The position numbers and the translations under genes were made by a program. A stretch of DNA of 64,000 bases, taken from contig JAQGHM010000249.1 in the NCBI GenBank assembly GCA_028291615.1, positions 1 through 64,000 on the forward strand, in the 5' to 3' direction. Positions 28,902 to 32,400 of this stretch are shown piece by piece; positions within the stretch are counted from its first letter, which is position 1, and every line of letters begins with the position of its first letter. The notes under the pieces were generated by a model. The model saw only the letters and a program-made list of their open reading frames with translations, was not told the origin of the DNA and made no database searches. Origin of the DNA: Phycisphaerales bacterium (GTDB taxonomy: Bacteria > Planctomycetota > Phycisphaerae > Tepidisphaerales > Tepidisphaeraceae).

Positions 28902-28972
28902 CACCACGGAGTCACGGAGAACACGGAGGAAAAGTCTTCGTTTCTCTCCGTGCTCTCCGTGACTCCGTGGTG
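28902..28972. repeat. Near-perfect 27-bp inverted repeat built of CACGGAG units
   Basis: The left arm (28902-28928) and right arm (28946-28972) match at 26 of 27 positions around a 17-nt loop. Each arm contains three CACGGAG-type words. It lies between two convergent genes and could also end transcription on both strands, though there is no T-tract. Related half-elements occur at 31869-31950 and 54918-54957. Confidence 0.75.
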
Positions 28973-30446: not shown

Positions 30447-31307
30447 ATGGAATTTCGATTTCTGCCATGGATCGTCGCAGCCTTGTTGACCGGCGGCTGC
30501 GCCCGCGCTGAAGCGCCGCTGGAGCATCCCTACGCCGGCGTGACCTATCGCGCGGAGGTTCGCAAGGATCCCGCCCAGCATCTCTTCTGGGCGAACATCG
30601 ACCTGGCCGATCCGCACGTCTCCCTGCACGTGGCGCGCGGCGGCGACGATCCCGATGGTGAGGGCAAGTGGCAGACGACGCTCATGCCCCCCACGCAGAT
30701 CGCGAAGCGCGAGGGATTCGAGCTGACCGTCAACGGCGACTTCTTCATCGTGAAGAAGGAGGAGGCGAAGAAGGACGACCCCAAGGCCCCGGAGACGCCC
30801 GCCTACAGCGCCAACCAGTGGGCCGCCGTCGCCGGCCCCGCCGCCACCGACGGCAAGGTCTGGGCCGTCGCCCCCAAGCCGCGGCCCTGCCTGGTCCTCA
30901 AGAAATCCGGCAAGGTGACGATCCAGCCGCTCACCGAGCCCGGGCCCGACGACGTGCAGGTGATCGCCGGCAACGTGATGCTGGTCGAAGGGGGACAGAT
31001 GATTGCCCACCCCAACCCCGCCCGCCATCCGCGCACCGTCGTCGGCCTCGACGTCAAGGGGACCAAGCTGACGATCCTGGTCCTCGACGGCCGCAAGACC
31101 GGCGTCGCCGAGGGGATGAGTTATGCGGAGTTGTCGAAGGAGATGATCGCCGCCGGCTGCGACCGCGCCTTGAACCTCGACGGCGGCGGCAGCTCGGTGA
31201 TGGTCCTGCGCGACGGCGAGAAGTTCCTCGTCAAGAACCAGCCGAGCAACGAGAAGGAGCGGCCGGTGGCTAACGTGCTGGGCATCGACGTTAAGGACGC
31301 GAAGTAA
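30447..31307 (+). CDS. Phosphodiester glycosidase (NAGPA-domain) lipoprotein
   Basis: About 286 residues. A lipobox (ALLTGGC) follows a short signal. The NAGPA/DUF2233 core is clear: FELTVNGDFF, VIAGNVMLVEGGQ, RTVVGLDVKGTKLTILVLDG and the conserved NLDGGGSSVMVL loop. The family hydrolyses N-acetylglucosamine-1-phosphodiesters in lysosomes and related phosphoglycan bonds in bacteria. The open frame begins far upstream in antisense of the FHA gene; ATG 30447 begins the signal peptide. Confidence 0.87.
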   Translation: MEFRFLPWIVAALLTGGCARAEAPLEHPYAGVTYRAEVRKDPAQHLFWANIDLADPHVSLHVARGGDDPDGEGKWQTTLMPPTQIAKREGFELTVNGDFFIVKKEEAKKDDPKAPETPAYSANQWAAVAGPAATDGKVWAVAPKPRPCLVLKKSGKVTIQPLTEPGPDDVQVIAGNVMLVEGGQMIAHPNPARHPRTVVGLDVKGTKLTILVLDGRKTGVAEGMSYAELSKEMIAAGCDRALNLDGGGSSVMVLRDGEKFLVKNQPSNEKERPVANVLGIDVKDAK

Positions 31308-31360
31308 TCGCACCGGCTGGGTCGGCCGCCGGTCTTGTCGTTCGCGCGGAAGAAGCAGCG

Positions 31361-31390
31361 CCCGCGAATGAACGCGAATGGACGCGAATG
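31361..31390. repeat. Three tandem 10-bp units (RACGCGAATG)
   Basis: CCCGCGAATG, AACGCGAATG and GACGCGAATG are consecutive. They open the gene-free zone 31308-31941. Confidence 0.7.
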
Positions 31391-31429
31391 TGAATTGAAC
31401 GGCGCGACTTGGCGTGAACGACGGACAAC

Positions 31430-31701
31430 TTCCCCAAGTAAGCGCGTCATTTCCCCGAGCAAGCGGCTTACTTCCCGGAGCAAGCGACTAATTTCCCCAA
31501 GTAAGCCGCTTATCTCCCCAAATAGGCGACTTACTTCCCCAAATAACTCTCGTACTTCCCCAAGTAAGTCGCTTACTCCCCCTAAGTAAGTCGCTTACTC
31601 CCCTAGATAAGTCTCTTACTTCCCCAAGTAAGCGGCTTATCTCCCTAAGTAAGTCTCTTACTTCCCCAAGTAAGCCGCGCATCTCCCCAAATAAAGCCGC
31701 C
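31430..31701. repeat. Tandem array of about 13 palindromic 21-bp units
   Basis: Each unit contains the dyad AAGTAAG-YCG-CTTACTT separated from the next by CCCC. Unit starts are 31430, 31451, 31472, 31493, 31514, 31535, 31556, 31577 (22 nt), 31599, 31620, 31641, 31662 and 31683 (partial). The units are degenerate, but 11 of the 12 complete units keep exactly 21 bp. Frames read as 7-residue repeats on both strands, but the 22-nt unit breaks them and no start signal is present, so I treat the array as non-coding. See findings. Confidence 0.88.
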
Positions 31702-31744
31702 TTTTGTCGGGTTTTTGAGTTTGTGTGGGGAACGGCCCGCGCCG

Positions 31745-31788
31745 GCGACTTATTGAACGGCAAAAATCCGTTCAAGTGCCCAAGTCGC
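31745..31788. repeat. Hairpin downstream of the 21-bp array
   Basis: TTGAACGG (31753) and CCGTTCAA (31768) form an 8-bp stem with a 7-nt loop. Outer arms GCGACTT and AAGTCGC extend it after a bulge. The GCGACTT word also resembles the array unit. Confidence 0.55.
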
Positions 31789-31868
31789 GTGGGGGGCGGG
31801 CCGATCTTCACGACAGCGCGGCGCGCGGGCGAATGAATTCGAACCCTCGATCGACCGCGCAGTAATGA

Positions 31869-31950
31869 ATTCCTCCGTGTCCTCTGTGCCTCCGTGGTGG
31901 AATTCTTCTTCCGCTTCTTCGTGCCTTCGCGCCTTCGTCGTTCAATCCCT
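31869..31950. repeat. Degenerate CCTCCGTG/CCTTCGTG interspersed repeat
   Basis: The stretch holds TCCTCCGTG, GCCTCCGTGGTGGAA and then CTTCGTGCCTTCGCGCC and CTTCGTCGTTCAA. It resembles one arm of the dyad at 28902-28972 and the block inside the decarboxylase gene at 54918. It overlaps the last codons of the next gene by 9 bp. Confidence 0.55.
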
Positions 31951-32400
31951 TCGCCGCGCCAGGTACCGCGCCAGCCAGAGTCCCGCGCAGAGCCCCACCG
32001 CCGCGGCGATCTCCCGCCAATCCGGGGAGAAGATCAGCACGAAGCCGCGCCCCTTCACCATCGCTGCGAAACTCGACACGCAGAGCGGCATCATGAACAG
32101 CCGCACGGTCGGCCAGAACCCGATCAGCACCCGCTGCGGCCCCGAGCGCGTCGTGTTGATGTAGAGCGCGAACCCGATGATCGCGCAAAGCCCGAAGCTG
32201 GTCGCCCAAACCTGTGGGCTCGGATCGAAATACCGCACCAGCACCACCAGGTACCAGATGAAGTAGCACCAGAGGATGAGCCGCCCGGTGCTGAGATTGC
32301 GGAGATAGCGCGCGATCACGCGGCGGATGATCGCGGCGGGCGACGGTGATTTCAAATCGCGATTAGATCGCCCCCGCCTCCCCGACGTGCTGCGCCGCAT
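31942..32400 (-). CDS. Small four-helix membrane protein
   Basis: Up to 152 residues with hydrophobic segments LILWCYFIWYLVVLVRYF, TSFGLCAIIGFALYI, LFMMPLCVSSFAAMV and IAAAVGLCAGLWLARYL. No family recognised. The ATG at 32400 overlaps the end of the upstream gene by 38 bp; a GTG at 32319 just before the first helix is an alternative. Its last codons are formed by interspersed-repeat sequence. Confidence 0.65.
   Translation of the reverse strand: MRRSTSGRRGRSNRDLKSPSPAAIIRRVIARYLRNLSTGRLILWCYFIWYLVVLVRYFDPSPQVWATSFGLCAIIGFALYINTTRSGPQRVLIGFWPTVRLFMMPLCVSSFAAMVKGRGFVLIFSPDWREIAAAVGLCAGLWLARYLARRRD

Follow-up and report, generated by a model that had tools for sequence, protein, structure and literature searches.

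Organization of the locus

The window, i.e., the whole stretch of 64,000 nucleotides that was analyzed, belongs to a draft genome of 6.9 Mb (400 contigs, 87% complete) of an uncultured bacterium, probably a planctomycete of the class Phycisphaerae. A tandem array occupies part of the 634-bp gap between two convergent genes (31308-31941), in agreement with the repeat zone of approximately 630 bp described in the initial annotation. The gap was delimited by a codon-usage gene caller, and the intergenic status of the array rests on this home-made model, not on curated annotation. Farther neighbors encode an FHA-domain protein, a BON/polyketide-cyclase protein, and MutS (mutS), as assigned with Pfam; no tRNA or Rfam matches were found in the window. 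The features of the locus and the arrays discussed below are listed in Table 1.

Table 1. Features of the locus and of further 21-bp arrays
Feature	Position	Strand	Basis or remark
Upstream convergent gene, NAGPA (phosphodiester glycosidase) domain protein	30447..31307	+	Pfam PF09992, E = 1.4e-28
Left flank, fragment of an intergenic element dispersed in the genome, with (CGCGAATGNN)x3 and TTGAACGGCGCGACTT	31348..31413	.	blastn
21-bp tandem array, 12 complete units and 1 partial, unit AAGTAAG-NCG-CTTACTT-CCCC	31430..31701	.	TRF, unit table, profile search
Lone 22-bp unit, linker CCCCCT	31562..31583	.	sequence; AAGTAAG at 31562 and 31584
Hairpin GCGACTT (31745-31751) / AAGTCGC (31782-31788) enclosing TTGAACGG...CCGTTCAA	31745..31788	.	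DNA fold z = -3.5
Right flank, dispersed element of ~70 bp, CTCCGTG and CTTCGTG words at 8-9 bp spacing	31864..31941	.	copies in L051 and L112
Downstream convergent gene, probable membrane protein, no Pfam family	31942..32400	-	ORF, gene model, Pfam; start at 32355 in the gene caller
ATGCATGC arrays, variable 13-bp spacers	G021 contigs C17, C26, C30, C33, C52, C61; L160 12628-12816 of the same genome as the window
CGAGTACAAAATCG 21-bp array	L051 5948-6060		250 bp from a copy of the right-flank element of the window

TRF reports the array with a period of 21 and 11.8 copies (score 204, 31428-31675), as well as in a 63-bp reading with a score of 244 and in a 42-bp reading, the whole lying at 31428-31700. 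Counted from AAG, the units start at 31436, 31457, 31478, 31499, 31520, 31541, 31562, 31584, 31605, 31626, 31647, and 31668, and the partial unit at 31689: the step is 21 bp throughout except for a single one of 22 bp (31562 to 31584). Sequence identity reaches 0.68 at lag 21, compared with 0.12-0.43 at lags 2-20 and 22-41, and a 7-bp rhythm is absent (identity of 0.13 at lag 7). Both the dyad-bearing 21-bp array and the constant length of all its complete units but one, as initially proposed, are thus confirmed. Because the repeated unit contains a palindrome, a second dyad (CTTACTT-CCCC-AAGTAAG) is necessarily formed, and each unit carries two dyad axes 10.5 bp apart. In the 1.9 Mb (27%) of the genome that was read base by base, no intergenic tandem array scores higher.

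The hairpin with the GCGACTT word, noticed earlier beside the array, is supported by its predicted fold and represents the sole copy of the TTGAACGG/CCGTTCAA pair in the 1.9 Mb. The left flank, in which three CGCGAATGNN words follow each other at 10-bp spacing (31363-31390), has blastn copies in L096 (88.7% over 62 bp) and L160 (86.6% over 67 bp), both without the array. The right-flank element abuts the 3' end of the minus-strand gene and recurs in L051 (5626-5695, 94% over 70 bp) and L112. Since the flanks belong to dispersed elements and the left-flank copies lack the array, the array itself probably grew locally. Triplets of CACGAAG or CACGGAG words with 8-9 bp spacing are also found in the window (28905-28969 and 31870-31940) and in L149, L160, and L162; they lie near gene ends and often face an inverted triplet 50-120 bp away.

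Divergence of the units

The similarity between units is about 0.7 (0.67-0.76) irrespective of the distance between them, as expected after one expansion followed by independent drift. Over 12 units, about 46 substitutions, mostly transitions, stand against one length change. The deviations per column amount to 5.3 in the 3-bp dyad center, 1.4 and 2.3 in the two arms, and 1.0 in the CCCC linker. The excess variation of the center is marginal (p = 0.046 for such a block) and provides weak evidence for constraint on the arms and the linker; none of the 8-column blocks of the unit is unusually conserved (p = 0.82).

No change in one arm of the dyad is balanced by a change in the other: there are no double changes in 84 pair cells, and 58 Watson-Crick pairs are observed vs 62 when arms are shuffled between units. 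A conserved RNA or DNA hairpin was therefore rejected, and there is no support for selection maintaining the dyad through its pairing.

Searches for related sequences

With up to two mismatches, CTTACTTCCCCAAGTAAG is found in the 6.9-Mb draft genome only within the array, and it is absent from all 60 relatives searched. A profile of two adjacent units matches only the array among 397 genomes of the class, bar one weak partial match in G144 (E = 0.005, 23 positions) that is not credited as a homolog. The sole exact match in a collection of species-representative genomes is an isolated chance occurrence of the word in a Hydrococcus MAG, where it lies within an open coding stretch. Pairs of AAGTAAG occur in the 60 relatives at scattered spacings, and the few 21-bp cases outside the array are single pairs. 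No related array was found in 72,556 plasmid records or in phage records. The loci of NAGPA relatives, with flanks of up to 1.5 kb, contain neither a 21-bp array of this kind nor synteny of the remaining neighbors. The search for the dyad word in the genome and its relatives, proposed as a check in the initial annotation, thus places the array at a single locus of one draft genome; no second member of the genus is among the genomes searched.

Helical periodicity and curvature

The A+T content of the array follows the helical turn rather than the unit: its power is 37.8 at 10.5 bp vs 0.7 at 21 bp, with a peak at 10.5-10.6 bp, and none of 2000 column permutations reaches the power at 10.5 bp. 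Among 252-bp stretches of the 1.9 Mb, the array is also the strongest for this periodicity (40.4, next 14.4). Predicted static curvature is ordinary (94th percentile at 126 bp and 32nd at 252 bp, computed with wedge parameters); the rhythm is thus in keeping with DNA that bends easily, or with a protein that repeatedly contacts the same face, rather than with a permanent bend. Static curvature was accordingly rejected as a common property of the 21-bp arrays as far as the window array is concerned; the CGAGTACAAAATCG array in L051 lies in the segment of 252 bp with the highest predicted static curvature in the 1.9 Mb. The A+T rhythm is not common to the other 21-bp arrays either, so the property they have in common is the step, not the composition.

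Other 21-bp arrays in the genome and the family

The periods of intergenic arrays in the 1.9 Mb show one peak at 7 and multiples of 7 and another at 20-21; no array has a period of 22-23. In a scan of 240 kb of DNA called intergenic for chains in which a 6-mer stands in register three or more times and the primitive period is 16 or longer, six loci have a 21-bp period (the window array, L160, L051, L072, L084, and the marginal L037) and one locus has a period of 60; as 27% of the genome was read, the counts of other arrays are lower bounds. Coding chains are spread over 18-63 bp, mainly at multiples of 3. An independent score-based scan yields the same peak, and its top three long-period arrays are all of 21 bp; on shuffled DNA, it yields 1-2 arrays in total.

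The words of the 21-bp intergenic arrays are unrelated (AAGTAAG, ATGCATGC, TCCATTGG, and CGAGTACAAAATCG). Unrelated arrays therefore exist, yet they keep 21 bp and do not have the random lengths that the initial annotation had named as a counterargument. A whole-genome pattern search finds TCCATTGG arrays on three contigs, with 21-bp steps and one step of 22 bp, two of these contigs appearing to be copies. These arrays lie near contig starts (L072 88-243, C318, and C350); C36 and C350 are apparently near-identical, which would fit a segment present in duplicate at which the assembly is interrupted. Arrays of ATGCATGC with a 21-bp step occur on one contig of the same genome and on six contigs of G021, which represents another genus of the same family. 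Pairs of ATGCATGC at exactly 21 bp are limited to 2 of the 397 class genomes (G000 and G021), the other genomes containing single pairs at scattered spacings. The ATGCATGC cores are more conserved than the spacers, both in L160 (permutation p = 0.0067) and in L185 (p = 0.0006, ascertained pair left out). Some spacers of the array on C30 of G021 are inverted relative to their neighbors (GATGTCACGTT / AACGTGACATC).

Errors of the step are mainly of one base pair (20 or 22 bp) across the arrays, which preserves the helical phase but not the reading frame and thus speaks for phased sites. The recurrence of the same 21-bp step in unrelated-looking arrays of the genome and of one relative suggests that helical spacing is what matters, probably in a role that involves a protein or DNA shape. 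It also makes the helical argument stronger than the window alone could make it. The two-turn register, by which all dyads had been proposed to face the same side, appears meaningful in view of this shared step and of the 10.5-bp A+T rhythm of the window array.

Two further observations concern neighboring kinds of repeats. The 21-bp repeat at L084 16827-16956 may encode a Met/His-rich small protein with PMHGMEQ repeats starting from an ATG, although the gene model does not call it. Three ATGCACG words spaced exactly 10 bp apart mark a dispersed intergenic element, which is present at 24 places in the genome (e.g., L037 16657, L040 3036, L105 10643, and L145 18563), often preceding GCGCGCC/CGCCA repeats at 10-20 bp. 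Genus g2 has the element in both of its genomes, at 5 and 4 places, and the remaining 23 family genomes searched lack it; the reversed-pattern control gives 0.

Interpretation of the array

The array is tentatively regarded, at slightly less than even chances, as a non-coding, helically phased element of DNA architecture or protein binding that originated in place, next to an intergenic element with dispersed copies. A 21-bp dyad unit, made of A+T-rich arms (AAGTAAG and CTTACTT) parted by a G+C-rich 3-bp center and by CCCC, would have been amplified in tandem inside the intergenic repeat zone and would since have drifted by point mutation with its length kept. A+T-rich and G+C-rich blocks would thereby alternate every 10.5 bp over some 26 helical turns, so that every arm is presented on the same face. 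A dimeric or nucleoid-type DNA-binding protein might read the regularly spaced sites, or the DNA itself might bend or wrap, and a local nucleoprotein or bent segment could form at the junction of the convergent genes. The same architecture, built with other words, may be represented by the ATGCATGC, TCCATTGG, and CGAGTACAAAATCG arrays elsewhere in the genome, and by ATGCATGC in the other genus of the family. The window array would then belong functionally with these arrays and would be bound by a protein. Several observations count against phased sites: the array occurs in a single draft genome among those searched, two copies of its left-flank element lack it, the other 21-bp arrays do not have its A+T rhythm, its predicted static curvature is ordinary, the excess variation of the dyad center is marginal, no block of the unit is unusually conserved, the arms show no compensatory changes, and no candidate binding protein was found.

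A neutral minisatellite is a close second and nearly as likely. In such a case, slippage or template switching would have amplified a 21-bp segment containing the dyad in tandem a single time, and the resulting array would now be decaying; the shared 21-bp period would stem from a mutational process that favors a particular step rather than from selection. Restriction to one genome, the arrayless left-flank copies in L096 and L160, the prevalence of transitions, and the flat relation of similarity to distance all agree with a decaying satellite, as does the typically short and species-specific character of bacterial satellites (PMC6749651). By itself, however, a satellite leaves unexplained why 21 bp is common to unrelated intergenic arrays and why the ATGCATGC cores are conserved over their spacers, and the share of indels is low for it (one length change against some 46 substitutions in 12 units). 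The broader possibility that intergenic arrays of this lineage, built from unrelated dyad words but all fixed at the two-turn step of 21 bp (with a one-turn version of 10 bp on the related word ATGCACG), serve as chromosome landmarks for a family of proteins sensing helical spacing as well as sequence is considered rather unlikely.

The remaining explanations are considerably less probable. A coding region for a heptapeptide-repeat protein, broken at the CCCCC run by a sequencing error or a real frameshift, is the least credible of them. Twenty-one base pairs correspond to seven codons, and frames are open on both strands, with S-P-S-K-R-L-T as a candidate heptapeptide on the plus strand and L-L-G-E-V-R-D or L-T-W-G-S-K-R on the minus strand. 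Contrary to the initial annotation, the 22-nt unit does not break each frame: the plus-strand ORF (31335-31589) ends there and, minus the extra base, would continue beyond the array, whereas the minus-strand ORF (31488-31811) passes it, switching from LLGEVRD to LTWGSKR. Some 21-bp repeats of the genome, such as the PMHGMEQ frame in L084, may indeed be coding. The array, however, is left intergenic by the codon-usage model, its ORFs have no Pfam match, and the deviations in the SPSKRLT frame (17 in third positions vs 9 and 20) show no third-position bias. A search for a sigma-70-like promoter found none, and steps of 20 and 22 bp occur in arrays of the sister type too. A gene is thus improbable here, and the initial preference for a non-coding element is upheld by the gene model, Pfam, and codon positions. 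An improbable explanation, too, is a transcribed structural RNA or a transcription barrier, in which the repeats fold in either direction as a long imperfect hairpin that stops or stabilizes transcripts of the convergent genes. The fold is strong (-89.5 kcal/mol vs -39.9 for shuffles, z = -12), and the location between convergent genes with a second hairpin nearby would suit it; but any array of dyads automatically folds strongly, pairs are not kept by compensation, and Rfam has no match. No terminator-like site was found at the array or the hairpin, only chance-level matches at 31315-31375.

The 21-bp step shared among unrelated sequences points to an action on DNA geometry, not on one sequence. 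Behind it would stand either a mutational process that advances by two helical turns or a family of binding sites kept in phase, in bacteria that have been little studied; neither is described in this group in the literature searched, where no description of 21-bp phased arrays in Planctomycetes was found. Owing to its very pure 10.5-bp A+T rhythm, the window array constitutes a good bait for a binding protein.

Comparison with known systems

Iterons of plasmid and some chromosomal replication origins are helically phased direct repeats with a length of about 17-22 bp. The array likewise consists of phased direct repeats, but no replication-initiator domain was found by Pfam in the nearest genes, and the plasmid records contain no relative of it. 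Partition sites of the parC/parS type consist of repeats or dyads in phase, which a dimeric protein recognizes; here, no parA/parB-type domain is found by Pfam in the nearest genes. While the initial annotation was right to place a protein-binding array or satellite before a gene, the iteron or partition type that it suggested is not supported, the nearest genes encoding FHA-domain, NAGPA-domain, BON/polyketide-cyclase, and MutS proteins and one protein of no known family.

Heptameric short tandem repeats are abundant in bacteria (PMC4692102) and common in the intergenic DNA of this genome, but the array has no 7-bp rhythm. It resembles REP, BIME, and REPIN sequences (PMC2817692, PMC3733652, PMC3116915) as intergenic short palindromes in regular clusters; those, however, comprise many dispersed copies of one palindrome, whereas the word of the array is confined to one locus. 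Like bacterial non-coding satellites, the array is short, non-coding, and species-specific, and lies in a genome that contains several such arrays: it is composed of head-to-tail units of near-constant length, and its sequence is species-restricted among the genomes searched. Satellites with long repeats and periods that are multiples of 3 have mostly been ascribed to coding regions (Subirana and Messeguer 2019, PMC6749651). In this genome, by contrast, it is intergenic arrays of unrelated words, with dyads, that cluster at 21 bp.
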